Below, piece after piece: positions 8,476-48,091 of a stretch of 64,000 nt of DNA. The notes under the pieces are model-generated. The model had not been told where the DNA came from. It did not search any database and saw only the letters and a program-made list of their open reading frames with translations. Source of the stretch: Arthrobacter sp. S41 (GTDB taxonomy: Bacteria; Actinomycetota; Actinomycetes; Actinomycetales; Micrococcaceae); the NCBI RefSeq assembly GCF_004320535.1, contig NZ_SIHY01000001.1, positions 1,798,001 to 1,862,000 of the forward strand, read 5' to 3'. Position 1 is the stretch's first letter. Each line of letters begins with the position of its first letter. A program made the position numbers and the translations under genes.

Positions 8476-9123
8476 ATGACAACACCCAACACTTTGATCC
8501 ACGTTCACTCGGTGCATTTTTCCTATGCTCAGGAAGAAATACTGCATGGAGTATCACTGACTATCAACAGGGGAGAAATACTGGCCATCACAGGCGCCAA
8601 TGGGTCAGGAAAGTCAACATTGCTTGAACTGATTGCTGGTGTCATGCTGCCCAGCCACGGTCACATCGAACGACCGGTTCCAGTTGCGCTGGTGGTTCAA
8701 AGGCCCAACACTCCCCCGGCTCTGCCACTGAGTGTGGCCGATGTTGTAGCGATGGGGACATGGCACACTCGATCCACACGAATAGAACGCAATCGGATCG
8801 TCGCACAGGGACTAGAGCGCGTGGGCCTTAGTGGATTTGAACGCCGAAATTTCTCCACGCTTTCCGGCGGGCAGCGCCAGCGTGCGCTAGTTGCTCAAGG
8901 ATTGGTCCAGCAAACTCCCGTACTACTGCTCGATGAACCTCTGGCTTCGCTGGATACTTCAAGTCGGGATGCGATTCATAAGATTTTGCGCGCCGAAGCG
9001 GACCATGGCCTAGCGGTGGTGCTGGTGACCCATGATCACGATTCTCAAATGCTTGCGGATCGAACCATTACCTTGCGCGACGGCGCTATTGCGCAGCGCC
9101 CAATACCAAGCCTGGCCACCTAA
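8476..9123 (+). CDS. aztA: AztA-like zinc ABC transporter ATPase
   Basis: ABC ATPase of 215 residues that powers the AztBC zinc importer. Walker A GANGSGKST (near residue 38), Q-loop VVQRP, signature LSGGQRQRALVAQGL, Walker B VLLLDEPLASLD and switch His VTHDHD are all present. An in-frame ATG at 8443 lies inside the Zur box and upstream of the -10 box, so it cannot be the start. ATG at 8476 follows the -10 box by 6 nt, with GGAGC partly available as a ribosome binding site; the transcript is leaderless or nearly so. Confidence 0.88.
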   Translation: MTTPNTLIHVHSVHFSYAQEEILHGVSLTINRGEILAITGANGSGKSTLLELIAGVMLPSHGHIERPVPVALVVQRPNTPPALPLSVADVVAMGTWHTRSTRIERNRIVAQGLERVGLSGFERRNFSTLSGGQRQRALVAQGLVQQTPVLLLDEPLASLDTSSRDAIHKILRAEADHGLAVVLVTHDHDSQMLADRTITLRDGAIAQRPIPSLAT

Positions 9124-27169: not shown

Positions 27170-27187
27170 GTGTATTTCTCCCCAGCT

Positions 27188-29913: not shown

Positions 29914-29984
29914 TTTCTCCCGCAACTCTTCTTGTTTACTTCAGGTATTGCCTGAGATGTGATTTACATCTACTGTAATGCAAT

Positions 29985-30018
29985 GAACACATTCCGAACA
30001 AGTGTACGCATAGCGAAC
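29985..30018. promoter_or_regulatory. Putative IclR-family operators in the qsu/shiA intergenic region
   Basis: GTACGCATAGCGAAC at 30004-30018 resembles the PcaU-type site GTTCGATAATCGCAC read on the other strand (11 of 15 positions by eye). A second, weaker copy, GAACACATTCCGAAC, lies at 29985-29999, 19 bp away. Both sit between the divergent dehydrogenase and transporter genes. Seen motif, inferred regulator. Confidence 0.5.
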
Positions 30019-30065
30019 ACTGTTCTTGAGCTTCAGCTTTAAACACTCGACGAGGAGTACCTCCG

Positions 30066-31516: not shown

Positions 31517-32446
31517 TCAAGCGTTGGGAGACTCGTTGATGGCGATGCCAAGGAGCGTCCGCTCATTGGCATTCAGCGCACGCTCTTCACGCCAAATGGC
31601 GCGCAACTCGCGCATTAACGCCGGGCCGGCAAACGGTACTTCAACCAACGACCCTTGATTGAGCAGGTTCTCCACCGCCAGCTGGCTGAGCACTGCCGGC
31701 CCCATGCCTCCGGCTACCAGCTGGGCGATGGTCGCATTGCTATTGAATTCCGCAATCGGCTTGGCCCGTTCAACGGCGGACAAGGAATTCAAAAAGGCCC
31801 TGGTCCCCGAGCCTTCCTCGCGCTCGATGAGCGCGGTTTCCTGCAGCTCTTCCAAGGTCACCGGATTCTTCCGCGCTGCCCAAGGATGGGTAGGCGAAAC
31901 CACGACCAGCATTTCATCGCGGAACACTTCACGGCTCCTGAGAGACGTGGGCAGCTGAGGTGTTTCAACAAATCCGAAGCCGAGCTGCTCCTGTTCCACC
32001 GCCTGGATCACGTCGTGGGAATTCATGATCCTCATTCGCGGAATGACGCTGGGCAGCTTCTCATGCAGCTGCCCGATCCATGACGGGGCCAGGTATTCTG
32101 CCACCGTCATGCTGGCCCCGAATTCCAGCTCCTTGTTGCCATGTTCGGCCAGCGAGCGCACACCGGCGGAAAATGCGTTCAACCCGGCGAGCGCCTCACG
32201 CGCCCACTGGACGGTCAGCACTCCTTCTGCGGTCAGAGTTGATCCGCTGGTTTTCCTGGTCACCAGCGCATATCCCAATCGGCGCTCGAGGGTTTTCAGC
32301 GCCCGCGAGGCGTTGGATTGCGCCATGCCGGCCGCCCGGGCGCCTGCGCTGAGGCTCCCGTGATCGGCAATGCCAACCAGCAACTCCAATGATGAGAATT
32401 GCAGCCAATGAGACAGGCTCTGCCCTGCTGGCGAATCGCTATCCAT
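31517..32446 (-). CDS. LysR-family regulator paired with YeiH-like exporter
   Basis: LysR-type regulator of 309 residues: N-terminal winged HTH (SSLELLVGIADHGSLSAGARAAGMAQSN split over the recognition helix, then RALKTLERRLG) and a periplasmic-binding-like effector domain (GFGFVETPQLP, HPWAARKNPVTLEEL, LIEREEGSGTRAFL). It is divergent from a YeiH-type gene with about 70 nt between them, the same pairing as YeiE/YeiH. This gene is markedly GC-rich compared with the flanks outside this block. Confidence 0.88.
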   Translation of the reverse strand: MDSDSPAGQSLSHWLQFSSLELLVGIADHGSLSAGARAAGMAQSNASRALKTLERRLGYALVTRKTSGSTLTAEGVLTVQWAREALAGLNAFSAGVRSLAEHGNKELEFGASMTVAEYLAPSWIGQLHEKLPSVIPRMRIMNSHDVIQAVEQEQLGFGFVETPQLPTSLRSREVFRDEMLVVVSPTHPWAARKNPVTLEELQETALIEREEGSGTRAFLNSLSAVERAKPIAEFNSNATIAQLVAGGMGPAVLSQLAVENLLNQGSLVEVPFAGPALMRELRAIWREERALNANERTLLGIAINESPNA

Positions 32447-32518
32447 ATCATGATCATATGCCCGCGATAGCCAGGAGGCGAATACCGCTGGCTAGCGCAT
32501 CGGCGGAGAATGGTGAGC

Positions 32519-33580
32519 ATGAACCGCCTCTCGGGCTCGACCAGCACTGCTTCTGCTTCCGATGCCGGCATGGCCAGCAGAACGCCGCTGGCCACCCGGC
32601 TGCTCTCCGGCCCGGTCCCTGGCGTGCTGTTGTGCCTGGCCGTCGGCGCGCTGTGCATGCTCGCCCGCCATTTCACCAGTTCCGTGAGCGCGTTGCTCAT
32701 CGCCATTGTGCTTGGCGCCCTGTGGCGCAACCTGGCGCCAGTGCCTCATGTTGTTGATTCCGGAGTGGCACTTTCGGCAAAGAAGCTGCTGCGGTGGGGA
32801 ATCGTCTTTCTGGGATTCCAATTGTCCTTGGAATCCATCCTTGCTCTTGGCCCCGGCGTGCTGCTGGTGGTGGTTTCATCGGTGACCGTCACGTTCCTGC
32901 TCACCGCCTGGATCGGCAAGCTGATGGGTCTGGACCTGGAACAACGGCTGTTGATTGCCATTGGCTTTTCCATCTGCGGCGCGGCAGCTGTGGCTGGGGC
33001 TGAAGGAACAATCAAGGCCAAGGAGCATCAAGTAGCCACAGCAGTTGGCCTAGTGGTGCTTTTCGGAACCCTGATGATTCCGGCCATGCCCGCGCTGGGC
33101 CTGCTTTTGGGTTTGGATGAACGCGGCATCGGCATGCTCGTGGGCGCTTCAACCCATGAGGTGGCACAGGTTGTGGCCGGCGCTGGCTCGGTGTCGGCAG
33201 CCGCCTTGGCCGTGGCCGTCACCGTGAAACTGGCCAGGGTTCTCCTGCTCGCTCCGGTGGTTGCCGGAGTCGGAATCTATATGCGGCGCAAGCACAGCGT
33301 TCGCGGCGACAAGAATCCGCCGCTGGTGCCCTTGTTCATTATTGGTTTCCTGGCCACCATGCTGGTGCGCACCACCATGGATCTCCCCGAGGTGTTCATC
33401 GACGGCGCTTCCACCGTGCAAACCCTGCTCTTGTCTGCGGCCATGTTTGCCCTGGGGCTCGGGGTCCACCTGCGCAGCATCTTCACTACCGGCGTCAAGG
33501 CGTTGCTTCTGGGCGTGATCGCAACACTCATCATCATCACGGTGGCAGCCAGCGGAACCGTGCTTTTCCCACCGGCCTAG
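32519..33580 (+). CDS. YeiH-family putative sulfate exporter (UPF0324)
   Basis: Membrane protein of about 353 residues with ten hydrophobic segments. Family motifs are LLRWGIVFLGFQLSL near residue 90, GFSICGAAAVAGAEG near residue 150 and GASTHEVAQVVAGAG near residue 205. The family is annotated as a putative sulfate/sulfite exporter; evidence for transport is limited. Several starts are possible (ATG 32510, GTG 32513, ATG 32519). GGCGGAG fits best with 32519. The gene ends at the right edge of the left GC-rich block. Confidence 0.85.
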   Translation: MNRLSGSTSTASASDAGMASRTPLATRLLSGPVPGVLLCLAVGALCMLARHFTSSVSALLIAIVLGALWRNLAPVPHVVDSGVALSAKKLLRWGIVFLGFQLSLESILALGPGVLLVVVSSVTVTFLLTAWIGKLMGLDLEQRLLIAIGFSICGAAAVAGAEGTIKAKEHQVATAVGLVVLFGTLMIPAMPALGLLLGLDERGIGMLVGASTHEVAQVVAGAGSVSAAALAVAVTVKLARVLLLAPVVAGVGIYMRRKHSVRGDKNPPLVPLFIIGFLATMLVRTTMDLPEVFIDGASTVQTLLLSAAMFALGLGVHLRSIFTTGVKALLLGVIATLIIITVAASGTVLFPPA

Positions 33581-34229: not shown

Positions 34230-35234
34230 TCAATTCTGGGAGAGTTCAGAATCGTAGTATTCGATTCCATCACGAATTTCACGAATCGGATCAACAGACA
34301 TATCGATTTCCGCTACACCCCAGCCAGACCACTGCTGTTCTTTCAGAGTCATGGTCCATTTGCGCCAATCAACAATTCCCTTTTCACCCATAACTCGGAA
34401 CGATTTGATCATCACGTCATGCCGTTCCATCGGTGTTCCGCTCAATTTGTGCGGGGGTAAATGTGCTGCACAGTCTTTCCAATGAAGTATCGGCGCACGT
34501 AGAGCATGCTTGCGAACCACGCTCACCGCGTCGCTTCCGTCAAGAGCGATATGCCCCGCATCTATGCACAGCTTCACCAAATTCGGATCCGTAATGCTCA
34601 TCAGGGTGTCTATATCCTCGACTCGTGATGCCAGTGAATAGGCGTCTGTATGAATCGCGAGATGCACTCCGCTCTCGGAAGCAATTTTCCCTGCGCCTTC
34701 CAGCACGTCAGCGATGGATCCCATAAGATCAGGATCGGCAGGCTTCGCGAATGAATCGGCCGATGCTTCGACTCCGGCCGTTTCCGAGAACTCTGCCCTG
34801 GGCACGGTGCTAGTAATCAACGTTTGGCATCCCACCTCACGAAGAAATTCGGCATGTTGCGCCGTCTCCTCATGAAGCCGGTTCAGGGCAACGGCCCTGC
34901 TCTTGGCGTCTGGGGCGTCCACGACTGCCTTGAGCGCTATCGGCAACACATAGCTCGATGAAAGTACGAGGCCGCGCCGGTCTAGCTCCTTCTTGAAAGC
35001 AGTAGCGGTCCCATAAGCACGCAACGCATTAACCCAACCACCGGGTGCTGGCGCTAATTCGATGCCGCTAAGTTGTGCTTCGGCAGCGCCGTCCAGCATT
35101 TTGTCAAAGAACCGATGAGGGTCCTCGTCAACTTTTCTTTCCCACTCGCTGTAGGCCTGCTCAGCGGGCATATCCCAATATTCAGGGTTGAAAAAAGTGA
35201 CAATGTCAGTGCTCCATCTCAAGTCCAGGCTCAT
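34230..35234 (-). CDS. TIM-barrel sugar isomerase/epimerase (MocC/IolE-like superfamily)
   Basis: Xylose-isomerase-like TIM-barrel protein, 334 residues. ATG 35234 overlaps the dehydrogenase stop (ATGA). Metal-ligand candidates follow the fold: Glu in QLSGIELAPAPGGW, Glu/His in HLAIHTDAYSL, Asp/His in LVKLCIDAGHIALDG, and Glu in WGVAEIDMSVDP. IolE, MocC and many 3-keto-sugar epimerases belong here. It is the last clear gene of a seven-gene operon. The substrate is unknown, but the neighbouring Gfo/Idh/MocA and IolC-like proteins suggest a keto-sugar or keto-cyclitol. Confidence 0.8.
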   Translation of the reverse strand: MSLDLRWSTDIVTFFNPEYWDMPAEQAYSEWERKVDEDPHRFFDKMLDGAAEAQLSGIELAPAPGGWVNALRAYGTATAFKKELDRRGLVLSSSYVLPIALKAVVDAPDAKSRAVALNRLHEETAQHAEFLREVGCQTLITSTVPRAEFSETAGVEASADSFAKPADPDLMGSIADVLEGAGKIASESGVHLAIHTDAYSLASRVEDIDTLMSITDPNLVKLCIDAGHIALDGSDAVSVVRKHALRAPILHWKDCAAHLPPHKLSGTPMERHDVMIKSFRVMGEKGIVDWRKWTMTLKEQQWSGWGVAEIDMSVDPIREIRDGIEYYDSELSQN

Positions 35235-36370
35235 GCCGTCACCTCGTCTACCGCTACCCATTGGTGGCTATCAGCAGATTGCATTACAGCTTCAATGACG
35301 CGCTGAGTACGTGTCGCTTCCGCGAACCCTGGCGTACCCGGCCGTCCTTCGACGATGGCACGTACGAACTTTTGAAGCTGCAGGGATGCATCATCTGCAT
35401 AACCCGTTCCCATACCGCCCAATGGGTACCAGTAATCCTGGTGATTTTCGTTCAACGTGATAGTCCGGAAGCCTTGCTTGTCTGGGTCATCACTGACCAA
35501 GCTGAGCTTGATTTCGTCAGTGTGGTTCCAGTCAAATTCAACGGTGCCGCCCGTGCATTCAAGTTCAAAAAATAGCCGGTTCTTGCGCCCCGAGGCGTAC
35601 ACCGTCGCCGCGAATGAACCAATTGCGCCGTTTTCGAATTTGGTCATCCACAAAGCCGCGTCATCGAGATGGTCTCCGGCTTTCCTTTCTTCGTCCGAAA
35701 GCCACGCAGTGTTACTTTTCGGATTCTTTGCGCCGACAATTGCGTTAACCGATTCAATGTCTCCAACGAGATACGAAGCCAAATCGATGATGTGAGAACC
35801 GATATCGCCTGTAACGCCAGATCCACCGGCAGACTTCTTGGCGCGCCACCCGCTCAAGACACGTCCGAGCGCTCCGACATCTTGCGTGTAGTGAGCACGG
35901 AATTGCAATGGATGGCCCAGGGTCCCGTCGTCAAGCATGTTCTTGATCAAGGTAATTGCAGCTGCATGGCGATAGTTGAAGCCCACTTGGCTCACCGATG
36001 AGCTCTTTTCGGCCGCTGCTTGCATGATCTCTGCGTCCTGAAGCGTATTGCTGATGGGCTTCTCGACGAACACATGCTTACCGGCCTGCAGAGCTGCCAC
36101 AGCGATTTCTGCATGCGACCCTGGAGGAGTCACAATATCGACAACATCAATGTCGTCCCTGGCGATAACAGCACGCCAGTCATCCGACCATTCTTCCCAA
36201 TTTAGTCGTTGCGCTGCCGACTTTGCCCGTTCTTCATCGGCTTCAACAAGTACGGCCTTGCGAACGACTGCACCTGCATCGGCTGTGATGGGAGCCAATG
36301 CCCATCCAAGGCTGTGGGCATACCCCATGAAGCCGCCACCACCGATAATTGCAACTCTAATCTCGTTCAT
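35231..36370 (-). CDS. Gfo/Idh/MocA-family oxidoreductase
   Basis: NAD(P)-dependent sugar or cyclitol dehydrogenase, 379 residues. The Rossmann motif AIIGGGGFMGYAHSLGW is at the N-terminus, DIVTPPGSHAEIAVAALQAGKHVFVEKPIS near residue 77 contains the family EKP catalytic lysine, and the DIGSH motif (GVTGDIGSHIIDLASYLVGD) stands near residue 186. At full length it resembles inositol 2-dehydrogenase relatives. Overlap with the isomerase gene suggests that the ketone it makes is the isomerase's substrate. Confidence 0.88.
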   Translation of the reverse strand: MNEIRVAIIGGGGFMGYAHSLGWALAPITADAGAVVRKAVLVEADEERAKSAAQRLNWEEWSDDWRAVIARDDIDVVDIVTPPGSHAEIAVAALQAGKHVFVEKPISNTLQDAEIMQAAAEKSSSVSQVGFNYRHAAAITLIKNMLDDGTLGHPLQFRAHYTQDVGALGRVLSGWRAKKSAGGSGVTGDIGSHIIDLASYLVGDIESVNAIVGAKNPKSNTAWLSDEERKAGDHLDDAALWMTKFENGAIGSFAATVYASGRKNRLFFELECTGGTVEFDWNHTDEIKLSLVSDDPDKQGFRTITLNENHQDYWYPLGGMGTGYADDASLQLQKFVRAIVEGRPGTPGFAEATRTQRVIEAVMQSADSHQWVAVDEVTA

Positions 36371-36448: not shown

Positions 36449-37423
36449 TCAGTTGGCTGGAATGCCGTGTGCCTGAACGGAAAACTCATGGAGCTCGTCC
36501 CAGCTCGGCATGGCCAATGAACATTGCGGTCTCGTCGCGACCAGAGCGCCTGCGGCATTAGCGAGGTCCAGTGTTTCCTGCAACGACATCCCTCTGAGCA
36601 GCGCATGGCACAATGCGCCTCCGAATGCGTCACCTGCTCCCAGGCCGTTGATTACATCTACTGGAATCGGCTTGGACTCAACGCGTTGCGTACGGGTTCT
36701 TGCCATTACGCCTTCGGGGCCCATCTTGACGATCGCCAATTCCACGCCACGATCCAGCAAGGCCTCTGCTGCCCGGTCCGGGTCAGTTTCCCCTACTGCA
36801 ACTCGACACTCTTCGAGATTTCCAACTGTCACCGTGACATGGTCCAGCGCCTTGGAAACGGCTTGGTGCGCTTGGTCCTCGTCTTTCCAGAACATCGGAC
36901 GATAATCCAGGTCCAAGATGGTGTTGGGCTTACGCCCGCGTTTTTCCCAGGCCATGATGTGGGCAGACTGCGTCGGTTCCTTAGACAAGCCCGTGGCGGT
37001 TGCCCAGAAAATAGGGCTCTTCGCAATGAGGTCCAAAGGCAGTTCGTCACCATTAATGTACATATCCGGAGCAGTAGGCTCGCGATAGATATACAGAGGG
37101 AAATTATCCGGTGGGAAGACTTCGCAAAAAGTCAGCACCGATTTCATTCCGGCTACGGCTGTTATCCCCGTGTTGTCTACACCAAGGCGGGCAATTTCAT
37201 TTTTGGCATACTCCCCGAACGGGTCGTCACCGACGCGACTGATCAGCCGTACGGAATTTCCGAGCTGTGCTGCAGCTACCGCAACGTTCGTTGCGCTGCC
37301 TCCAATCGACTTGCTGAAGCTGGTGATTTCCTCAAGCCCGACTCCGAATTGTTCCGGATACAGGTCGATGCAAACTCGACCTATCACCACGACATCGGCT
37401 TTTTGGTCCATCCTGTTGTTCAT
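36449..37423 (-). CDS. iolC: IolC-like 5-dehydro-2-deoxygluconokinase (PfkB family)
   Basis: PfkB carbohydrate kinase, 324 residues from ATG 37423. The N-terminus VVVIGRVCIDLYPEQFGVGLEE, then SIGGSATNVAVAAAQLG and FCEVFPPDNFPLYIYREPTAPDM are strongly like actinobacterial IolC, which phosphorylates 5-dehydro-2-deoxy-D-gluconate. The anion hole and base are in VINGLGAGDAFGGALCHALL near residue 255. It overlaps the aldolase gene by 4 nt. The other inositol genes (iolA, iolB, iolD) are not in the window, so the true substrate may differ. Confidence 0.8.
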   Translation of the reverse strand: MNNRMDQKADVVVIGRVCIDLYPEQFGVGLEEITSFSKSIGGSATNVAVAAAQLGNSVRLISRVGDDPFGEYAKNEIARLGVDNTGITAVAGMKSVLTFCEVFPPDNFPLYIYREPTAPDMYINGDELPLDLIAKSPIFWATATGLSKEPTQSAHIMAWEKRGRKPNTILDLDYRPMFWKDEDQAHQAVSKALDHVTVTVGNLEECRVAVGETDPDRAAEALLDRGVELAIVKMGPEGVMARTRTQRVESKPIPVDVINGLGAGDAFGGALCHALLRGMSLQETLDLANAAGALVATRPQCSLAMPSWDELHEFSVQAHGIPAN

Positions 37424-38331
37424 CGTTCTTCTGTCTTTCGAATTCGCTCTGCTATTGATTGCAAGTTCTTTGGCGCATGAGAGCGCAGGTAATCGCCAGG
37501 ATCTGCCGCCCTCGTTGCACGGCTCCAAACAGCCCGACCAGCCAGAAACCCGCTTGCTCCACCCGTCACTGCTGCCAAAACCGCTTCAGGAAATTCTTCG
37601 GCAGAAACGCCGGAGGAAAGAACAACCCAAGGGCAGTCAAGTTCGCGAGTGATTGATTTGGCTGTTGCTACTGCCAGTGCTCGATCTTGTTCGCCACCAT
37701 AGAGGACCTCGGTCTTATATAGGTCTGGCTGCACCTTGGACAGGTCCGATGCGGCCATGATGAGCGCTTCCGAGAAGCCTTCGGCCGATTCCAGATGCCC
37801 CTCGCGTGGCCTGACAACGCCCTCGAGCACTCCCGGAATTCCAAACTCGCGGCACCGCTCCATGAAGGCATGAGCAAGCTCGACGGCTTCGGTTCTGCGG
37901 TTGGGCTGCCAGGGCAGTAGAAACTTCAAAGCCTTCGCGCCAAAAGCTTGAACAGTTTCGAGAGTCACAGAATCATCAAGTTGAGCGATGTCCATGGGAC
38001 CACCAGGCTGGCTGGAGCTCAAGATATCGGCGGCCAGGATTACCGGGCACTGTGCGTTTCTCGCTGCTGCTAGCCCGTAATCTTGGTCAAGCAATAGGCC
38101 GCTTGCCTGGTCCCCGATAGCCAGAGCCAAGTCAGTCTTGAAACTGGACAATTCATCGTCCGCAATTGCAGCACCCTGCCGGCCTTCACTCAGCATGTGA
38201 CGTAGCGAGCCTCGCTGATCTACTGCGACCATACTGAACATTCCGTACTCATCACGGAACACATCGATTGGGCCACGTGGGACAGGATCGACATTTGTCT
38301 CGTAGCTTGTTTCTTCGATATGAGCGCTCAT
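37420..38331 (-). CDS. LacD/YihT-type class I aldolase
   Basis: Aldolase of 303 residues related to tagatose-bisphosphate aldolase LacD and sulfofructose-phosphate aldolase YihT. Shared motifs are FSMVAVDQRGSLRHML near residue 32, GLLLDQDYGLAAA, GAKALKFLLPW, PDLYKTEVLYGG (catalytic Lys candidate) and WVVLSSGVSAEEFPEAV followed by GASGFLAGRAVW. It would split the phosphorylated product of the neighbouring kinase into two three-carbon units. ATG 38331 overlaps the cyclase-family stop, and the end overlaps the kinase gene. Confidence 0.82.
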   Translation of the reverse strand: MSAHIEETSYETNVDPVPRGPIDVFRDEYGMFSMVAVDQRGSLRHMLSEGRQGAAIADDELSSFKTDLALAIGDQASGLLLDQDYGLAAARNAQCPVILAADILSSSQPGGPMDIAQLDDSVTLETVQAFGAKALKFLLPWQPNRRTEAVELAHAFMERCREFGIPGVLEGVVRPREGHLESAEGFSEALIMAASDLSKVQPDLYKTEVLYGGEQDRALAVATAKSITRELDCPWVVLSSGVSAEEFPEAVLAAVTGGASGFLAGRAVWSRATRAADPGDYLRSHAPKNLQSIAERIRKTEER

Positions 38332-39391: not shown

Positions 39392-40267
39392 TTAGTTGGC
39401 GGTCTTTGCTTGTTCAAGCAATCGCTGGATATAGAGGGCTCGATTCACGTCAATCTCGTGAGAATTGCCAGACCTTACGACTTCGGCGAATTCTCGGCGA
39501 ATAACGTGAGGCGTCTCAGGGTCACCGTCTTTGCCCACGAATTCGCATTCGAGTTCGCCGTCTTCGGTATATACCTTGACGCCGGCTACGTCAGTGACGA
39601 CGGGGCTAGTGAGCGACAAAGCGGCCTGGCTCAAAACCCCGTTCTCATGAGTAGCCGTCAAGATGTACCAGCGCTGTGGATCGCCTTCACCGCGAACTTG
39701 GGTAATAGGCCCAACTGCCGCGTCCAAAGTGTCCAGAACGTGCGGCCCAAGATCGAGGAGGCCGCCTTTTTCAATTCGCCAAGGAGTTGCAAAAGTGCCA
39801 CCTGGAAGTGCTGCCTGATTGATGTAGCTTCCAACAGCGCCAATCGGCTTCTGTTTCCGTGCATCAGCCAAGAATTCACGAATGCGTGGGCTGAACCGGT
39901 TAGTGAACATGACCTGCGTAGCTACGTTGGCTTCGTTCAGGGTGCTCGTTAATTTCTCGGCCTGTTCAAGATCCACACCAAGTGGTTTTTCCAACAACAT
40001 CGGTTTGCCGGCCGGCGCGGCCTTTGCCGCCAGTTCCGCCTGAATGAATGGCGGGACGGCGAAGACAATTGCATCTACGGACTCGACCAAGTCTTCGAAG
40101 GAGCCGGAGACCACGCCTCCGAACTCATCAACGATTTCCTGGGCAGCTTCTTGTCGACGAGCCCAGACAGCCGTAAGCTCCGCTTCAGGGCCTCCGGTGA
40201 TCATTGGCGCATGAAAAATCTTTGCCCACGGGCCGGCGCCAACGAGTCCAATTTTTACTGCAGTCAT
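39392..40267 (-). CDS. Second Gfo/Idh/MocA-family oxidoreductase (short form)
   Basis: NAD(P)-dependent dehydrogenase, 291 residues: short compared with the usual 330-390. The Rossmann motif IGLVGAGPWAKIFHAPMI is at the N-terminus, then AVPPFIQAELAAKAAPAGKPMLLEKPLG with the EKP lysine near residue 93, and a DLGPHVLDTLDAA motif near residue 173, where the commonly conserved His is kept. AGGAC precedes ATG 40267. Two different MocA-type dehydrogenases in one operon suggest two oxidation steps, or oxidation followed by re-reduction at another carbon. Confidence 0.85.
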   Translation of the reverse strand: MTAVKIGLVGAGPWAKIFHAPMITGGPEAELTAVWARRQEAAQEIVDEFGGVVSGSFEDLVESVDAIVFAVPPFIQAELAAKAAPAGKPMLLEKPLGVDLEQAEKLTSTLNEANVATQVMFTNRFSPRIREFLADARKQKPIGAVGSYINQAALPGGTFATPWRIEKGGLLDLGPHVLDTLDAAVGPITQVRGEGDPQRWYILTATHENGVLSQAALSLTSPVVTDVAGVKVYTEDGELECEFVGKDGDPETPHVIRREFAEVVRSGNSHEIDVNRALYIQRLLEQAKTAN

Positions 40268-40385: not shown

Positions 40386-41855
40386 CTAGGATCGGTCACC
40401 TTCTGCACGGCCAAGGCAGCCATACAAATTGGGATGCAGACGTTTCATCCGAATCGCAACCAGACAGCCCGCGCTGATGAACAGGATCGGGATCAGCAGG
40501 AGCCAAAGCCGTTCTCCTGGCTCTCCGCCGACGAGAAGATCGAATCGAACAAGCGCAAACACTACGACTGCACAAAGAATGAATGCGGCGATCAGAGGCG
40601 CAGTTTTCACCCTCCACACTGATTCGCCTGCCGGGCGGCCAGCCATAGCGAAGTATCGGACCACTGCAAAACTCACCAAGGCCATCAGGGACAGAACCCC
40701 TGCCGTTCCCAAGCCACTGCCAGTTCCGATAACTAGGTCCTCGTCGTGAATGATGAGCCCACCAAGAATGAGAAGTACGCCAACCAGAACGGAGTTCGTT
40801 CCCGACGCTTTGTATGGCGACTTGTGAACCGGGTGTACAGCAGCCAAGAAGCTCGGAAGAGCATGATCTGCACCGAGGTTTTGAAGGTATCGTGCAACCA
40901 CATTGTGTGTAGATAGCACCGATGCCAGCGCTGAAGTTGCTACCAAAACCAGCGTCACTGTGGCCAAGCTGTTGCTGACGTAAGTTGCCATCGCTGAATC
41001 AAACATCGTTGTTGGGTCATCAACCGCATGCGAGACCGCGCTTGATCCATAGGCGGTAATCATTGAGTACGCAGAAATCGCGTAGAACCCGCCGATGAGG
41101 AAGACAGCCATATACGTTGCCCGAGGAATCGTCTTTCCTGGATTTCGAACTTCGTCCCGATACAGAGCAGTTGCTTCAAATCCGACGAAATTTCCGAAAG
41201 CAAACAACAATGCCATGCCTGTGCCGGCATTCAAGAACTTGGCTGGGTTCAGGGGCTCAACTGACAGCCCGCTTTCACCGCCCTTGCCGAGAACGACGAC
41301 GTTGAAAATTGCTACCAAGATAATCTCCAGGACCATGACGATGCCCAGTACCTTGGCGGAAAGTTCAATTTGGAAGTGGCCAAGGACGGTGATGACAATC
41401 CAACTGGCTGCAGTGCACAAGTACCACGGGATAATTGGTCCGCCTAAGGCTTCCACAGCAGAAGAAACCATTGTCCCGGTAAATGTATAGATGCCAACCG
41501 TAATCAGCATGTACGAAACCGTTGCTAGGTAGGCTCCGCCAAGTCCAAGCGTCTTCCCGAGCCCCAGTGAAATGTAGGCGTAGAAAGCTCCTGGGCGTTT
41601 GATGTGCTTAGTCATGGTGGTGTAGCCAACCGAAAAGATCGCTAGACCGATAGTTGCCACGACCCAGGCCAGAGGCGCCGTTTCACCAACAAAGCCAATT
41701 GCGAAGGCAATATATCCCGAAACGGTCACAATGGGAGCGGAAAAGGCGAGGACGCTCAGAACTAGCGACGTTGCACCTAGATTTCCTGACAATCGAGTAG
41801 TTGATGACGGGAGTTGCGTAGGCAACGCCCCTACATCCTTGGATGTTTTAGTCAT
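40386..41855 (-). CDS. APC-superfamily permease, first gene of the sugar operon
   Basis: Membrane transporter of 489 residues, about twelve helices, with the APC opening LSGNLGATSLVLSVLAFSAPI and the mid-protein LFAFGNFVGFEATALYRDEVRNPGKTIPRATY. APC carriers move amino acids, polyamines and other organic cations, which is odd for an otherwise sugar/cyclitol-like operon and hints at an amine-containing substrate. ATG 41855 is chosen because AAGGAACC precedes it; the longer frame runs into the operator region. An operator lies 86 nt upstream. Confidence 0.85.
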   Translation of the reverse strand: MTKTSKDVGALPTQLPSSTTRLSGNLGATSLVLSVLAFSAPIVTVSGYIAFAIGFVGETAPLAWVVATIGLAIFSVGYTTMTKHIKRPGAFYAYISLGLGKTLGLGGAYLATVSYMLITVGIYTFTGTMVSSAVEALGGPIIPWYLCTAASWIVITVLGHFQIELSAKVLGIVMVLEIILVAIFNVVVLGKGGESGLSVEPLNPAKFLNAGTGMALLFAFGNFVGFEATALYRDEVRNPGKTIPRATYMAVFLIGGFYAISAYSMITAYGSSAVSHAVDDPTTMFDSAMATYVSNSLATVTLVLVATSALASVLSTHNVVARYLQNLGADHALPSFLAAVHPVHKSPYKASGTNSVLVGVLLILGGLIIHDEDLVIGTGSGLGTAGVLSLMALVSFAVVRYFAMAGRPAGESVWRVKTAPLIAAFILCAVVVFALVRFDLLVGGEPGERLWLLLIPILFISAGCLVAIRMKRLHPNLYGCLGRAEGDRS

Positions 41856-41940
41856 GGTGGGTTCCTTGGAGAGAGGGAGGGAACGAACCGCACTTGCCGG
41901 TCGTGTGATGCGCAGCACCGGTGCGATTGTCACCACGCTA

Positions 41941-41955
41941 CCTAACGATCGTAAG
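41941..41955. promoter_or_regulatory. Operator copy 1 of the P450-region regulon
   Basis: CCTAACGATCGTAAG, upstream of the permease operon. It matches operator copy 2 at 13 of 15 positions, and the similarity extends outwards: CGCTACCTAACG.TCGT is shared with copy 2 in the opposite orientation. The core ACGATCGT is palindromic. Confidence 0.7.
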
Positions 41956-42023: not shown

Positions 42024-42038
42024 CCTAACGAACGTTAG
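42024..42038. promoter_or_regulatory. Operator copy 2 of the P450-region regulon
   Basis: CCTAACGAACGTTAG, part of a 16-bp near-perfect palindrome (42024-42039), 73 nt upstream of the reductase ATG. Copies 1 and 2 lie in the 256-nt divergent gap. The TetR protein encoded at 45382 is the obvious candidate ligand. A TATAGT -10 candidate for the reductase gene lies downstream at 42090-42095. Confidence 0.75.
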
Positions 42039-42111
42039 GTAGCGTTATGGTAATCAAGAATCATGTTCTACATAGATACTAGACGTGTCTATAGTCTCAT
42101 TAGGAGATATT

Positions 42112-43401
42112 ATGTCCATTTCTACAAATTATTTGTCAGGCATCATGCCGGACAGTGGACAAAATGATGAAAAAATTTCAGCCCACGTTGCGATTGTTGG
42201 CTCCGGCCCAACCGGATGTTTCGCCGCACTCGCAATGCTCAAATGTATCCCCGAAGTACGCATTACAGTCTTCGAAGCCAGGCCTGCTCCATACGGACTT
42301 TTACGCTACGGAGTGGCTCCTGACCATCAAGGAATGAAAAACGTGACTCGGCAGTTTGAGCGGTTATTCGGATCGAACCAAGTCGAATTCGTAGGCAACG
42401 TTCGAATCGGGCAAGATCTCCCTTTTGAAGTCCTCCAGGAAAACTTTGATTTTGTAGTCATAGCGACAGGGCTTCCTTCTGAACGGGCACTTCCTGTGCC
42501 GGTCCACCCCGGTGCCAAGATTTGGGGTGCCAGCCAGTTGCTTCGCTACCTCAACGCCGATCCAGACAGTGACCTTCGCACAAAAGAAACTGTGGAGTTA
42601 GGCGACTCTGTTCTCATCATCGGCTCAGGAAATGTCGCAATGGATGTAGCGAGATTACTCGCCAAGTCAGATGAGGGTTTTGATGGATCGGATGTCGATG
42701 ACGCGGCTCGAGAAGCGTTAGCGCCGTCGAAAATCACTCGCATCACGTTGCTCTCCCGAAGCCCCTACGAACAAGTTCGTTGGGACCCGTCGATGTTCAA
42801 GGAGCTGTGCTCCATCCCCGGTGTTGAGGTCTATCTGGACGGAAGACGCTCCACGGAAAGGACTGACACATTCTCGGGGCCAACGCGCCATCAACGACTT
42901 CGCGTCGAAGTTTTCTTCAACCAGAAACTGCGCGAAATCGACCTCCAAGAAGACAATGCCTATGCCAATCAAATAACTGTCAGAACTCAAAATGGAACAT
43001 CTGACGCTCACCTGTCCGCAGAGTCTCCCAAAACGTCCTTTCGGGCATCGGCTGTCATTACTGCGATTGGCTTCGAAGAGCGTCGTATCGGTTTTGGCGA
43101 AGTTCCTGCCGACAATGTATTTCGCGCCGGCGGGTGCGCTACCGGCCGGCTAGGAAACCTCGCCGAAAACCGAGCGCTTGCAAAACAGACTGCGCAACTG
43201 GTCGCCGCAAAGGTGGGAAAACAATCTAAACTCACGGGTTTGGCCGGCGTTGCACCATTCCTGGCTCAAACTCCGGTTTCGTTTTCTGATTGGAAAGCCA
43301 TTGATGAAGCTGAAGTAACTAGGGCACGGCCCGGTCGCATCAGGCAAAAGTTCACATCATGGTCCGAAATGAGCGACGTAGTCGCACAGACGCGCAGCTA
43401 A
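42112..43401 (+). CDS. Adrenodoxin-reductase-type flavoprotein, XplB-like P450 reductase partner
   Basis: FAD-dependent NADPH reductase of the FprA/adrenodoxin-reductase family, 429 residues from ATG 42112 (AGGAGAT upstream). FAD site VAIVGSGPTGCFAALAML is near residue 25, the LLRYGVAPDHQGMKNV loop follows, and the NADP site VLIIGSGNVAMDVARLL is near residue 170. The C-terminal FAD-binding ATG-like motif reads VFRAGGCATGRLGNLAENRALA. It is 57 nt upstream of a flavodoxin-P450 fusion gene. The same two-gene arrangement is known for XplB-XplA of Rhodococcus, where XplB reduces the flavodoxin domain. Confidence 0.88.
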   Translation: MSISTNYLSGIMPDSGQNDEKISAHVAIVGSGPTGCFAALAMLKCIPEVRITVFEARPAPYGLLRYGVAPDHQGMKNVTRQFERLFGSNQVEFVGNVRIGQDLPFEVLQENFDFVVIATGLPSERALPVPVHPGAKIWGASQLLRYLNADPDSDLRTKETVELGDSVLIIGSGNVAMDVARLLAKSDEGFDGSDVDDAAREALAPSKITRITLLSRSPYEQVRWDPSMFKELCSIPGVEVYLDGRRSTERTDTFSGPTRHQRLRVEVFFNQKLREIDLQEDNAYANQITVRTQNGTSDAHLSAESPKTSFRASAVITAIGFEERRIGFGEVPADNVFRAGGCATGRLGNLAENRALAKQTAQLVAAKVGKQSKLTGLAGVAPFLAQTPVSFSDWKAIDEAEVTRARPGRIRQKFTSWSEMSDVVAQTRS

Positions 43402-43458
43402 TAACTTCTTGCTTCACCGCACTAATCAACCAACACCTAATCACAAAAGGAAACACCG

Positions 43459-45117
43459 ATGACTCGAGTCAACGTTTGGTATGGAACAGAATCCGGAAAC
43501 GCAGAAATGGTGGGAGATGAGATCGCCGCAGCGCTTTCCTCCACGGGGTTCACGAGCAATTTAGGCGAACTGCCCGACACCAGTGTTTCAGACGTTTCCA
43601 ACGCAGAACTCACCATTTTCGTTACTTCCACCTACGGCGAGGGCGGGCTGCCGGCAACGACAGAACCTTTCTACGACGCGCTGTCGGCTGAACGCCCAGA
43701 TCTAAGCGGACTCAAGTTCGCCGCTTTCGGATTGGGAGATCGCACCTACGAAAACTACAACAACGCGGTAGCAACAGTTTCTACGCTTTTGATCGACCTA
43801 GGAGCTGAACAAATCGGGCCAACCGGAAAGCATGACGCAGTGACCGGACTCGATCCCGCGCAGGTTGCCCAAGAATGGCTCACGAACGAGATCCTGCCCA
43901 TCCTCAATGCCGAAGGTGAATCCGAACAAGTGGAAAAAAGCTCACACTCTTCAGACCTGTTCCCATGGAGCAACGAAGACTTCCAAAAAAATCCTCATCC
44001 CTGGTACGACGCAGCTCGCGAACTGGGCCCCGTTCATCAGACTGACGACACGACATTCGTCGTTCTTGGCTACGATGAGGCGATGAAATTCGTCAAGGAA
44101 CCAAGCATGAGCATCCGTGAGCCAGATTGGATTCAAGAGAATCCATGGAAGGCTTTTGGAAATACCGTTCTCTCTCTTGACCCGCCTAATCACACAAAGG
44201 CACGTCGATTGTTTTCTCGCTGGTTCACCCCGAAGCTGATCAAGCAGTGGGTCGAAGCGACGAAGACTTCCATGGAGGAAATCCTCGCTGGGTACAAGCC
44301 AGGACAGGTAATCGACGGCCACTTCGATTTGGGCGTTGTTCCGACTCATACAACCATGGCGCAGGTACTGGGATTCCCAGACGGCGAAGTAGAGCCGCTG
44401 TTCTGGGCACTGTGGAATGCAATGTTGATTCAGGCAACTGATCCTGCCCCTGGAACGCGCGAAAAGTCCATCGAAAGCCTAGACTACATGTTTAACACAA
44501 CCGCGAAGCTGCTCAAGGAAAAGGAAGAGAGTCCAGGCAACGGTTTGGCAGATGAGCTGCTAGCGGCAAGCAAACGGGGTGAAATCACCGAACGAGAAGT
44601 TCTGGAAAATATGGTACTTTTCTACATGTCAGGCGCCCCGAATCCAGCATATCTAGTAGGCGCCGGACTTGAGATCTTCGCCGAGCATCCAGAAGTCCTT
44701 CGAGAGTACCGGGATAATCCAGGAGCCCGCGAACAGATTGTCAACGAGATCGCTCGGCTAAATCCCGTCGAACTCCTGCTTACCCGATTCCCGACCCAAG
44801 ACATCGAAATTGCGGGCATCTCCATTCCGGCTGGTTCAATGGTCAAATTCCCTATCGGGGCCGTGAATCGCGATCCGAAAATTTTTGACAGCCCACACAA
44901 GTTTGATTTCACGCGGCCGATCGATGCGAGCCGAAACCTTACCTTCGGTTTGGGTACCCATAGTTGTGCAGGTCAGTTGATTGCCCGTGCTGAAATTGAC
45001 ATCATCTTCACAATGATTGCGGAGCGATTTACCGAAGTCACGATTGCTCAGGAGCCAATTCGCGTCATCACGGATCGATTAGTCGCATACGACAAGTTGC
45101 CTGTCACTCTGTCGTAG
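43459..45117 (+). CDS. Flavodoxin-cytochrome P450 fusion, XplA-like
   Basis: Single protein of 552 residues, the length of XplA (CYP177A1). Residues 1-145 are a flavodoxin: FMN loop WYGTESGNAEMV at residue 7, TSTYGEGGLPATT near 56 and FGLGDRTYENYN near 93. Residues about 165-552 are a P450: EIAR (ExxR) in helix K and the heme loop FGLGTHSCAG with Cys503. Helix I reads FYMSGAPNPAYL around residue 390, so the usual acid-Thr pair is replaced by Pro394-Asn395. XplA also lacks that pair and works reductively on RDX. AAAGGA precedes the ATG; GC is about 48%. The native substrate is unknown. Confidence 0.92.
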   Translation: MTRVNVWYGTESGNAEMVGDEIAAALSSTGFTSNLGELPDTSVSDVSNAELTIFVTSTYGEGGLPATTEPFYDALSAERPDLSGLKFAAFGLGDRTYENYNNAVATVSTLLIDLGAEQIGPTGKHDAVTGLDPAQVAQEWLTNEILPILNAEGESEQVEKSSHSSDLFPWSNEDFQKNPHPWYDAARELGPVHQTDDTTFVVLGYDEAMKFVKEPSMSIREPDWIQENPWKAFGNTVLSLDPPNHTKARRLFSRWFTPKLIKQWVEATKTSMEEILAGYKPGQVIDGHFDLGVVPTHTTMAQVLGFPDGEVEPLFWALWNAMLIQATDPAPGTREKSIESLDYMFNTTAKLLKEKEESPGNGLADELLAASKRGEITEREVLENMVLFYMSGAPNPAYLVGAGLEIFAEHPEVLREYRDNPGAREQIVNEIARLNPVELLLTRFPTQDIEIAGISIPAGSMVKFPIGAVNRDPKIFDSPHKFDFTRPIDASRNLTFGLGTHSCAGQLIARAEIDIIFTMIAERFTEVTIAQEPIRVITDRLVAYDKLPVTLS

Positions 45118-45128
45118 TAACCCGTTTT

Positions 45129-45164
45129 GCTTGGTGGAGAGCTCCGCAAAGCTCTCCACCAAGC
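45129..45164. terminator. Hairpin terminator after the P450 gene
   Basis: Perfect 15-bp stem (GCTTGGTGGAGAGCT and complement) with a CCGCAA loop, 11 nt after the stop. No T-run follows, but the stem is very stable. Confidence 0.8.
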
Positions 45165-45220: not shown

Positions 45221-45385
45221 ATGATCAGCTCCAACTGGACTCGACTTTTACGTAGGAAAGATCATTGCGTCGAAAACTCGCAATCTCGAATTGAACAGTA
45301 CATTCGAACGGGAGACAACAGTTTTTACAGTGGAGCAGAGCAAGCTGCGAGCAAGTTAGATTTGCAGGATAAACAGATAAGATGA
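45221..45385 (+). CDS. Possible 54-residue protein translationally coupled to tetR
   Basis: Uninterrupted frame from ATG 45221 (GAAGG 5 nt upstream) to TGA 45383-45385, which overlaps the tetR ATG by four bases (ATGA). The peptide begins MISSNWTRLLRRKDHC, is strongly basic at first, and ends AEQAASKLDLQDKQIR, a likely helix. I do not recognise it. The tetR start itself has only a poor ribosome binding site, so coupling through this frame is plausible. A chance frame cannot be excluded. Confidence 0.4.
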   Translation: MISSNWTRLLRRKDHCVENSQSRIEQYIRTGDNSFYSGAEQAASKLDLQDKQIR

Positions 45386-46092
45386 TGGTTATGACCGCTA
45401 ATGGAGCAACGACAAAAAAGAAAAAGACAACGTCAGAGCCTATGGCGACAACTTTTCGCCAGCTTGCGTTGGATGAATTCGCGCGTCAGTTCGATACCGC
45501 TCATATAGACGACATGTCTCCTGCTAAGCGTCGTGTCGTCGAAGCATTCCTAAGGCTGTGCGTAGTACACGGGATGCAGTCCGTTAGCATGCGTACGTTG
45601 GCAAAAGAACTTGATATCAAGGCACCTACAATTTATTCGCATTTCCCAGGTGGTCGCGACGAAATCATCGCGGAATCCCTGCGCTGGCACTTCCATCATT
45701 TTTGCAGCGCCCTTGTTGATGCAGTTCGCCCCGCGAAGGACGCTTCGTCCTTTCTCGACTCGATGATCCGGCTCCACTTCGTACGCCAGGTTCAATTGCC
45801 CGAAAGCAATTTGTGGGATTTGATTGTTGGTATCGACCGATCAGTGCAAATCCTTCCTGTGGATCTCAGCGTGCAAGTGGCGCATTGGGTCGATCTATAC
45901 GAATCGCTGTACATTGCGGTTGCTCGTGACCTCGGACTCGAAGATGTCTCGATCAAGGTGAAAATGGTCAACACACTGCTGGAGGGTTCAACCAGATGGT
46001 TCGAACCTACAAAGACAGCCAAGGGCCTGTCTCGAGGCGCTGATCAAGCCGTGGCCATCGCCCGTCAAATTCTCGGATTGGCCGCTTCCTAA
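45382..46092 (+). CDS. TetR/AcrR-family regulator of the P450 region
   Basis: Regulator of 236 residues. After a basic, Lys-rich leader the N-terminal HTH lies at about residues 52-98 (VVEAFLRLCVVHGMQSVSM, then RTLAKELDIKAPTIYSHFPGGRDEII). The C-terminal part is an all-helical ligand domain with no family signature I can name. It is the only regulator between 34 and 48 kb, and three copies of a palindromic motif stand before the three transcription units around it. ATG 45382, 45385 and 45391 are all possible starts. Confidence 0.88.
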   Translation: MMVMTANGATTKKKKTTSEPMATTFRQLALDEFARQFDTAHIDDMSPAKRRVVEAFLRLCVVHGMQSVSMRTLAKELDIKAPTIYSHFPGGRDEIIAESLRWHFHHFCSALVDAVRPAKDASSFLDSMIRLHFVRQVQLPESNLWDLIVGIDRSVQILPVDLSVQVAHWVDLYESLYIAVARDLGLEDVSIKVKMVNTLLEGSTRWFEPTKTAKGLSRGADQAVAIARQILGLAAS

Positions 46093-46168: not shown

Positions 46169-46183
46169 CCTACCGACCGTTAG
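46169..46183. promoter_or_regulatory. Operator copy 3 of the P450-region regulon
   Basis: CCTACCGACCGTTAG, 43 nt upstream of the VOC start. It matches operator copy 2 at 13 of 15 positions; the consensus of the three copies is CCTAnCGAnCGTnAG. This ties the VOC and MFS genes to the same regulator as the P450 operon. Confidence 0.65.
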
Positions 46184-46225
46184 TTAGCAGAAGATGCTTT
46201 CGCAACCCTAGACATCGAGAGATAA

Positions 46226-46744
46226 ATGATCACAGTTAAAAGAGCATTCGACCATATCGGCATGTCTGTCCCCGATCTTGAGGAAGCAGTCGACTTTTTT
46301 GTCGATGCCCTAGGATTCGAAGTGGTTATCAAGGCAGGTCCGTTTGATGATTTTGGATATGTCTGGCCTGGTGAGCTGGAACCCGAGCCAGGAACACTGC
46401 GACAAGCGAACCTGGTACTGGGTAATTCATTCAATATCGAGCTACTTGAGTACACGAATCGAACTGCCACCCTTCCTGATGCAGCGCCTCGACCTGCGGA
46501 TCCAGGAGGCTGGCACCTATGCCTGCATGTCGACGACATTGATAAGGCAAGCGACGAATTAGCAAGTCGTCTAGACACCACTCAAATTTCGGACATCATC
46601 CAGGAAGAACAGGATATGGAAGGACTAAGGTGGGCCTATTTCAGAACCACATGGGGGTTAGTACTCGAACTCATTCAGTGGTCTCCTGGAATGCCTTACG
46701 AATCAACGACGCAGGCACGAATGGCATTGCCCCGCTGGGCCTAA
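46226..46744 (+). CDS. VOC (glyoxalase/dioxygenase-like) family protein
   Basis: Protein of 172 residues in the vicinal-oxygen-chelate superfamily. The first beta-alpha module starts with KRAFDHIGMSVPDLEEAVDFF split by the metal-type His (DHIGMSV), and a second module has HLCLHVDDIDKASDEL near residue 94 and a late Glu in LVLELIQW. Metal ligands His, His and Glu are thus plausible. Members are isomerases, dioxygenases, glyoxalases or binding proteins for toxic compounds. GAGATAA precedes the ATG, and an operator copy stands upstream. Confidence 0.82.
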   Translation: MITVKRAFDHIGMSVPDLEEAVDFFVDALGFEVVIKAGPFDDFGYVWPGELEPEPGTLRQANLVLGNSFNIELLEYTNRTATLPDAAPRPADPGGWHLCLHVDDIDKASDELASRLDTTQISDIIQEEQDMEGLRWAYFRTTWGLVLELIQWSPGMPYESTTQARMALPRWA

Positions 46745-46882: not shown

Positions 46883-48091
46883 ATGCACATTTCGAATTCC
46901 CCGGCACGAGGCGAACTGACTCGACGTCGGCGCGCCGTGTTCGCGGCATTTGTCGCTTTCGGTCTGGTTCTGGGGTCGTGGGCAGTTCACCTGCCAATTT
47001 TGAAATTCAATCTACACGCAAGTACATCCGAATTAGGGATCATCCTGCTCATACTGGGCGGTGGCGCATTTTTCGGAATGCAGGCCAGCGGATATGCCGC
47101 CAACAAATTCGGGAGCGGGAAAGTCGCAGCCATCGGCTCATTGGCGCTCTCGATAACCATCGTTCCTCCACTTTTCTGCTCGACCTGGGCATCTGCAGCG
47201 ATAGCTTCACTGGCATTGGGCATTAGCGTGGGGATCATTGAAGTAGGAGCTAATGCCGCCGCCGTAGAAGTTGAACGCGAGTACCAACGGCCCATCATGT
47301 CGTCTTTCCACGGCATGTTTTCCGTAGGCAGTGTGCTGGGCTCAGTGATCGGAGCCGGCGCATTTGCTCTAAACATCAGTTATCGGTTCACGCTGCCTAC
47401 CATTGCCCTAATGGTGCTCATTTTGCTTGTTGTCTCAGCAAAAACGCTGATGACAATTCAGACAGACCCGACTCCACCAATTGTGACCGGCTCAACCGCT
47501 ACCTCAAGCAAGGTTCACCGAAGCAAACGCCATACGATGCAGCTCATCGCTTACGGATGCTTGGCGTTCCTGCTCTTGCTGACCGAAGGATCTGCCATGG
47601 ATTGGAGCAGCCTTCACGCCCAGGAGCACTTGGACGCGACATCCAGCGGTGCTGCACTAGCCTTGGCGTGCTTTGTGAGCGCAATGACAATTGGACGATT
47701 CACAATCGACCGTCTCGCGGAACGAATCGGTCCCGCGCGAATTCTCCGTTATGGCGCTGCCCTGTCGATCGCCGGGCTCATAGCCGTCATTTGCTCTCCA
47801 GTCCTTCCGCTTGCGTGCATTGGCTGGGCTGCTACGGGGCTAGGCCTCTCTGGCTGTGTCCCGCAGGTATTTACCGCAACAGGAAACCTTCATGGTTCAA
47901 ATGCCAAAGAATTAGCCCGCGTCGTCGGCGCTGGATATATTGCGGTGCTCGCCGGTCCCGCGATCATCGGTTGGCTCGCCGACCAGCTTGGAATCAACAA
48001 CGCCTTCATCCTGCCAATCATTGGCATGGTTATCTGCCTAGCATCCGCCAACGTATTGGAACCGAAGAAAGAGCCAGTAGCGACCCACTAA
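46883..48091 (+). CDS. MFS transporter (YbjJ/fucose-permease-like)
   Basis: Twelve-helix MFS carrier of 402 residues. Basic N-terminus (ELTRRRRAVF), then FGLVLGSWAVHLPILK, a GGGAFFGMQASGYAANKFGS motif near residue 52 and SFHGMFSVGSVLGSVIGAG near residue 140, as in YbjJ and other fucose-permease-type proteins. It may import or export; direction is unknown. AAAGG lies upstream of ATG 46883. It follows the VOC gene by 138 nt and is the last gene before the right GC-rich block. Confidence 0.85.
   Translation: MHISNSPARGELTRRRRAVFAAFVAFGLVLGSWAVHLPILKFNLHASTSELGIILLILGGGAFFGMQASGYAANKFGSGKVAAIGSLALSITIVPPLFCSTWASAAIASLALGISVGIIEVGANAAAVEVEREYQRPIMSSFHGMFSVGSVLGSVIGAGAFALNISYRFTLPTIALMVLILLVVSAKTLMTIQTDPTPPIVTGSTATSSKVHRSKRHTMQLIAYGCLAFLLLLTEGSAMDWSSLHAQEHLDATSSGAALALACFVSAMTIGRFTIDRLAERIGPARILRYGAALSIAGLIAVICSPVLPLACIGWAATGLGLSGCVPQVFTATGNLHGSNAKELARVVGAGYIAVLAGPAIIGWLADQLGINNAFILPIIGMVICLASANVLEPKKEPVATH

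Follow-up and report, generated by a model that had tools for sequence, protein, structure and literature searches.

What does a flavodoxin-P450 fusion of the XplA kind do in nature? XplA and its reductase XplB, known from Rhodococcus, Gordonia and Williamsia, denitrate RDX, a man-made compound. We analyzed a 64,000-nucleotide (nt) stretch of the Arthrobacter sp. S41 genome (contig NZ_SIHY01000001.1, positions 1,798,001 to 1,862,000; hereafter the window, with positions counted from its first letter), in which an XplB-like reductase gene is followed by a gene for a flavodoxin-P450 fusion. This pair, a divergent operon of APC permease and polyol genes, and a unit of a VOC protein and an MFS transporter share one operator box. 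Such shared control with an inositol-like pathway points to a natural role in consuming an amine-bearing ring compound. With a probability of about one half, the genes would form a sporadic TetR-regulated catabolic cluster in which an amine-bearing polyhydroxylated ring is imported and oxidized and then enters an inositol-like pathway. Strongest among the results are the genome-unique box linking the P450 to the polyol genes, the separate fusion on two trees, and the isolation of XplA at positions 395 and 438.

Gene pair, operator box and polyol operon

The reductase gene (42112..43401, forward strand) encodes an FAD/NADPH protein of the adrenodoxin-reductase type. Its ATG at 42112 is preceded by AGGAGA, and a GTG 27 nt upstream opens the same frame too. 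After a gap of 57 nt comes the fusion (43459..45117, forward strand), a protein of 552 residues with the flavodoxin at about residues 1-150 and the P450 at about 161-552 (Pfam Flavodoxin_1, E 1.9e-26; p450, E 7.7e-28). The coordinates, gap and domain types given in a preliminary description of this DNA agree with the open reading frames (ORFs), Pfam matches and PDB comparisons. The likeness to XplA and XplB claimed there holds as well. XplA, of the CYP177A1 type, is the top PDB match of the fusion (2wiv, E 1.5e-115), with 44% identity over the full length, the same domain order and the same 552 residues. The P450 domain alone is also 44% identical, above the rule of thumb of at least 40% for one P450 family, and the haem Cys503 is present. 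The reductase finds its best PDB match in adrenodoxin reductase (E 4e-37); it is 36% identical to XplB of Gordonia KTR9 and 54% to its counterpart in Rhodococcus erythropolis R138, and lies directly upstream of the fusion as XplB does of XplA. The flavodoxin domain also matches cindoxin (4oxx, E 9e-30). The fusion is the sole PF00067 match in the 3.47 Mb genome and is 97% identical to its counterpart in Glutamicibacter sp. JC586, a close relative of the window genome.

When the divergent region was aligned across seven relatives, two boxes stood out as conserved, the one an inverted form of the other and both of them copies of the near-palindrome CTACCTAACGNTMGTWAG. In the window, copy A (CTACCTAACGATCGTAAG, 41938..41955, forward strand) lies on the APC side and copy B (CTACCTAACGTTCGTTAG, 42025..42042, reverse strand) on the XplB side, both exact, while copy C, a palindrome with 2 mismatches and no assigned strand, is found at 46170..46187 before the VOC-MFS unit. 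With up to 3 mismatches the window holds 9 matches, 8 at the three operator sites and 1 at 9116, where shuffled sequences lead us to expect 0.10. Across the whole 3.47 Mb genome, the 5 matches listed with up to 2 mismatches all fall at the three sites (the reversed pattern matches 3 times). The regulated block with sugar- or cyclitol-type genes, described earlier, is thus marked by a genome-unique operator-like box common to its units.

The palindrome core, with up to 2 mismatches, occurs in all seven fusion loci, with two sites upstream of the reductase and one before the VOC gene; the window and JC586 are near-copies among these. When 10 genomes or records were searched with a relaxed pattern, 37 of the 38 places listed lay, judged by coordinates, on the cluster's own contig or plasmid and no more than about 22 kb from the P450; the other was on the plasmid pRme41a (a palindrome is counted once per strand, and the reversed pattern gave 14 matches in the same set). 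Streptomyces RP5T carries operator sites before the reductase and before a LysR/hydroxyacid-dehydrogenase cassette, Nocardia vaccinii only before the matching cassette, and Mycolicibacterium P9-64 in both settings. A sister palindrome, CGAACGNNCGTTCG, precedes the reductase in Enterobacter, Klebsiella, Serratia and Pseudomonas RIT288, and the APC gene too in the first three. From its position and co-occurrence, we infer that the box is bound by the TetR-family regulator (45382..46092), encoded on the forward strand ahead of the VOC (glyoxalase-fold) protein (46226..46744) and the MFS transporter (46883..48091), both also forward.

The row of seven genes running divergently from the pair, all on the reverse strand, begins with the APC-family permease (40386..41936; true start probably at about residue 20-28). 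It continues with Gfo/Idh/MocA dehydrogenase 1 (39392..40267, weakly IolG-like), a cyclase-family protein (PF04199; 38328..39311) proposed to be the ring hydrolase, a class I aldolase of the LacD/YihT type (37420..38331), an IolC-type kinase (36449..37528), Gfo/Idh/MocA dehydrogenase 2 (35231..36370, levoglucosan-dehydrogenase-like, below cut-off) and an IolE-like TIM-barrel protein (34230..35261, below cut-off). The kinase is above the curated IolC cut-off (361 vs 300 bits) and has IolE- and IolG-like partners, as in inositol (iol) catabolism. Unlike the canonical iol set, the row has a class I aldolase and a cyclase-family protein in the place of the ring hydrolase IolD, and profile scans of the operon proteins gave no match of the IolD, IolB or IolJ type. 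The genome has a second IolC above cut-off, 53% identical to the window kinase, at another place, where a partial IolE-like match and an aldehyde dehydrogenase are close by; the polyol genes of the window therefore look like a second, specialized set. The GC content at third codon positions is 0.47-0.61 in the cluster genes, and in four flanking genes about 0.75 (two) and 0.63-0.65 (two), which fits horizontal arrival without proving it.

Four relatives of the cyclase (54-60% identity) were inspected; their settings are CoA-type or uninformative, with one unannotated, and indicate no substrate. In S. meliloti MABNR56 (L058:15578-26460), homologs of Gfo/Idh 1 (55%), the cyclase (30%) and the LacD-type aldolase (33%) stand in one sugar-transporter cluster together with an SBD_N sugar-binding-domain protein and ABC transporter parts. 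No P450 match was found within the 40 kb read there, so such polyol parts also occur where a P450 is not needed.

Origin of the fusion and the branch of XplA

The architecture was described as rare, and the genome counts bear this out. At E 1e-60, with homologs fused or not and the window's own genome included in its phylum, order, family and genus, the fusion has a homolog in 1 of 396 genomes at the phylum level, namely the window's own, and in 2 of 396 in the order, 3 of 245 in the family and 3 of 18 in the genus. Further homologs occur in 7 of 331 genomes in the family of a Mycolicibacterium (G993) and in 2 of 298 in the genus of P. mosselii. For a survey of gene neighborhoods, loci were picked by similarity in a contig scan (20 loci) and in plasmid and genome searches; L028, a 29% match over 80 residues, was left out, and L002 and L029, the same place as L015, were counted once with it. 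Around the resulting 33 P450 loci (10.5 kb radius, own bit thresholds, with undercounting at contig ends; three loci on one Mycolicibacterium contig), we found an XplB-like gene in 25, a flavodoxin, fused or separate, in 26, an APC permease in 23 and a TetR regulator of the window's type in 22. Without two near-copies the numbers become 23, 24, 21 and 20 of 31. The reductase-flavodoxin-P450-permease-TetR module recurs in actinobacteria and proteobacteria, and the earlier concern that neighborhoods might never keep reductase and P450 together is answered by those 25 loci.

A P450 tree of 37 rows places the fusions apart. The eight fused proteins require two changes and are grouped in none of 200 bootstrap trees. 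XplA (KTR9) joins P450s without a fused flavodoxin (G514, MycP964b, G1097, G1280, G1222 and G1030; support 98/96), whereas the window clade joins those of Streptomyces RP5T, N. vaccinii and Brachybacterium SGAir0954 (100/100), sister P450s of 54-62% identity whose loci contain the same palindrome and which differ in that the flavodoxin is encoded by its own gene. In Streptomyces and N. vaccinii the module is accompanied by a hydroxyacid-dehydrogenase/LysR/aldehyde-dehydrogenase/FAH cassette, with a Baeyer-Villiger monooxygenase in Streptomyces, instead of the window's polyol operon. Constraining the fused proteins to one group was rejected in an approximately unbiased (AU) test (p-AU 0.000282; 34 rows, minus two outgroups and the long-branched G1030), and the reductase tree likewise needs two changes; orthology to XplA via a common fusion was rejected on these two trees. 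On the short flavodoxin alignment a single fused group is not rejected (p 0.136).

The simplest account of the P450 and reductase trees is that the window fusion and the XplA fusion probably arose separately; alternatively, one old fusion may have been followed by several fissions. Both P450s belong to one wider family, most members of which have a separate flavodoxin gene or none nearby. Of the outcome that the preliminary description had named as adverse, an independent fusion in an unrelated CYP family, only the independence is therefore borne out. The link to XplA's native role that it implied is not supported on these trees: with a separate fusion, the cluster would show what a cousin of XplA does, not what XplA did.

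The window fusion, like XplA, has no Asp/Glu-Thr pair; for XplA this loss is stated in PMC8081977. At position 395, the place of the usual Thr, the 35 family P450s have Asn (27), Asp (6), Ser (1) and, only in XplA, Ala. Since Thr occurs in 0 of 35, its loss looks older than the use of RDX. Position 438, numbered alike in XplA and the window fusion, holds Glu in 34 of 35, XplA being the sole exception with Gln. Position 394 is more varied (Pro 19, His 8, Met 6, XplA among them, Gln 1, Leu 1). After removal of rows 90% alike, 438 remains Glu in 28 of 29, with Asn 21, Asp 6, Ser 1 and Ala 1 at 395. P450cin, like the window P450, has Asn (Asn242) at the Thr position; its redox partners are separate proteins.

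The surroundings of XplA and its kin differ from the TetR-operator block of the window. G1097, G1280 and G1222, the nearest kin of XplA here, have a glutamine-synthetase-like gene, an FCD regulator and a cupin beside the module, and their loci contain no operator box (palindrome core, up to 2 mismatches). In Gordonia KTR9 (L006:7494-9935) the XplB frame extends upstream into a glutamine-synthetase-like domain, giving an ORF of 814 residues with XplB at its C-terminus, and FCD and cupin genes lie nearby. Likeness to the kin is modest (26% for the synthetase domains, 27% for the FCD proteins); the cupins of KTR9 have their matches in G514 (57%) and G1030 (43%) and not in G1222. On the same branch, MycP964b has a TetR regulator instead of this setting. 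The isopropylamine (Ipu) pathway offers a comparison: there the amine is glutamylated before the P450 acts (PMC6776027). The synthetase-like setting resembles this route and suggests that amines were handled by the forebears of XplA too, along a route other than the window's. A search of the window with the G1222 synthetase-like protein (E 1e-5), of a type that some XplA kin do have, gave no match. What the window would share with Ipu is a permease followed by a multicomponent P450 whose substrate derives from an amine; the TC1 Ipu clusters differ in having ferredoxin partners and a gamma-glutamylamide synthetase (PMC6776027).

A candidate catabolic route and its rivals

The gene content allows a possible pathway to be drawn, in which the substrate class, the reaction and the order of steps are what we infer. 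The APC permease would take up a small amine-bearing, polyhydroxylated ring compound, and the conserved Glu438 would suit an ammonium-bearing or otherwise positively charged amine. Electrons would pass from NADPH through the XplB-like reductase and the flavodoxin domain to the P450, which might oxidize the carbon adjoining a heteroatom in an oxidative deamination or N-dealkylation, with O-demethylation a close rival, leaving a ring ketone or polyol. The two Gfo/Idh dehydrogenases and the IolE-like protein could then process the ring, the ring ketone being dehydrogenated, and the cyclase-family hydrolase would open it in place of IolD. After phosphorylation by the IolC-type kinase, the LacD/YihT-type aldolase would yield a triose phosphate and a semialdehyde. 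The latter would be oxidized by a succinate-semialdehyde dehydrogenase (SSADH), a gene found directly behind the P450 in three of the seven fusion loci: R138 (the query), UNC23 (82%) and P9-22 (77%). The complete set of six polyol genes is present in six of the seven; for the remaining locus, MycAT1, the contig is 7.2 kb long and has Gfo/Idh 1 at its edge.

Several observations weigh against this pathway. None of the six polyol genes was found at E 1e-6 in the other 26 P450 loci, so P450 and operon may be co-regulated yet act separately. The APC permease is absent from two of the seven fusion loci (AT1 and P9-64), and SSADH stands behind the P450 in only three and not in the window, whose genome has its best SSADH (60%) away from the cluster. 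The likeness to IolE (88/290 bits) and to IolG (103/355 for Gfo/Idh 2 and 61/355 for Gfo/Idh 1) is below the cut-off. No box was found near the reductase at the search threshold in P. mosselii, Pseudomonas ICMP22404, Burkholderia and N. vaccinii, and three of these four modules still have a TetR. That residues 394, 395 and 438 face the pocket, finally, is presumed from structure work on XplA.

Which ring might be consumed? Inositol breakdown yields malonate semialdehyde, and the same would be expected of a six-carbon ring here. In tropine breakdown, a seven-ring trione is the intermediate on the way to succinate and acetone. A seven-carbon ring of the calystegine type would give dihydroxyacetone phosphate and succinate semialdehyde, the latter fit for SSADH. 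We tentatively suggest that the cluster degrades calystegines (polyhydroxy-nortropanes), with the P450 removing the bridge nitrogen and a seven-carbon homolog of the inositol pathway splitting the ring, although the odds are clearly against this specific assignment. Two leads point to it. R138 was isolated from hydroponic potato pots, and potato makes calystegines. The use of calystegine by Rm41 is attributed to pRme41a in PMC3556828. A search of the whole plasmid (E 1e-4) found no homolog of the P450, XplB, flavodoxin, APC, cyclase or aldolase, which counts against the calystegine case. This negative is softened by a lead: beside a PotD-type ABC transporter operon, pRme41a encodes a TetR of the family with an operator-like box (158275-159226; L062:8275-9226), the plasmid's only one at 1 mismatch to the relaxed pattern. 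This TetR shares 40% identity with the window's regulator, 50% with the N. jiangxiensis one and 47% with the one in the Agrobacterium module, next to which it groups (88/88). The kinship is one of regulator and operator only. No paper on the native substrate was found in the open-license PMC literature by title or abstract start.

Nearly as likely as the calystegine or amine reading, and itself doubtful, is that the P450 is an O-demethylase that strips the O-methyl group from a methylated cyclitol or a rhizopine-like methyl-inosamine, releasing formaldehyde while the rest enters the inositol-like route. The IolC above cut-off agrees with this. The rhizobial mocDEF oxygenase is said to demethylate 3-O-methyl-scyllo-inosamine, and Arthrobacter isolates reportedly use scyllo-inosamine without moc genes. 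Genes for S-(hydroxymethyl)glutathione dehydrogenase and formylglutathione hydrolase adjoin one distant family member (L008); however, no formaldehyde-named gene was seen among the cluster genes read, and with the second IolC locus at hand, the genome would seem to have no need of an operon given over to plain inosose. A MocR-like regulator of Pseudomonas ICMP22404 was considered as rhizopine evidence and set aside, as it is below cut-off and too general to count.

A somewhat less probable alternative is that one regulator governs two jobs: the P450 and MFS transporter would detoxify an amine, either an alkaloid or a drug-like compound, and the polyol operon would consume the sugar part of that amine or a sugar that occurs with it. 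This would fit the modules of Enterobacter and Klebsiella, in which P450, APC and an efflux-type MFS occur and polyol genes do not, but the same box sits on both divergent promoters and the block is intact in six of seven fusion loci. We think it improbable that the substrate is a simple, pyrrolidine-like cyclic amine oxidized to a product of the gamma-aminobutyrate type and to succinate semialdehyde; the SSADH genes in three loci and aminotransferase genes near some modules fit, and the six-gene polyol set is left unexplained. Degradation of RDX or another nitramine, as in XplA, is very unlikely despite the shared domain order and identity, given Pro/Asn/Glu at 394/395/438 instead of Met/Ala/Gln, the separate fusion and the native-looking regulon.

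Flanks of the cluster and the wider family

Just 3' of the P450 stop codon lies a perfect inverted repeat with 12-bp arms (45131..45162, forward strand), a possible terminator that has no T-run and is not among consensus terminator predictions. It is also present in JC586, and imperfect repeats occupy the same spot in UNC23 and AT1. Between P450 and TetR, JC586 carries an insertion of about 937 bp with a 269-residue ORF (L009:11929-12738), transposase-like by eye, in the slot that holds SSADH in R138.

Beyond the polyol operon the window contains a quinate/shikimate-type block (26399-31403) of an IclR regulator, a QuiC-like 3-dehydroshikimate dehydratase, a shikimate dehydrogenase and an MFS transporter, and a divergent pair (31517-33580) of a LysR regulator and a YeiH-family putative sulfate exporter. 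Among the genes annotated in the R138 block, for which the annotation table is incomplete, nothing corresponds to this pair. A sulfoquinovose reading of the YihT-like aldolase was rejected: Arthrobacter YA7-1 holds a kinase/aldolase/SSADH/sulfite-exporter set resembling the sulfoquinovose pathway, and its aldolase is only 35% identical.

Other members of the family are found in varied company. Plasmids of Enterobacter hormaechei (L004:10676-17449) and Klebsiella grimontii (L005:10676-17440) carry the reductase, flavodoxin, P450, MFS, TetR and APC genes. Mycolicibacterium P9-64 has three family P450s on one 778 kb contig (L051, L052 and L012); the region that holds two of these also contains caprolactamase-like hydantoinase A/B genes. 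The module of P. mosselii SC006 and Pseudomonas RIT288 (L017, L021) adjoins lumazine-synthase-like, RutF-like and chemotaxis receptor genes, in opposite order.

These results place XplA in a wider, sparse P450 family whose usual companions are a reductase of the XplB type, a flavodoxin, an APC permease and a regulator of the TetR family. They indicate that the fusion arose twice, and they name two positions at which XplA alone departs from its kin. The genome-unique box, together with clusters in environmental bacteria such as Glutamicibacter and R. erythropolis R138, makes the native substrate directly testable. If the calystegine reading is true, XplA would derive from a family of amine-ring P450s, as an offshoot altered from Glu438 to Gln and to Ala at 395.

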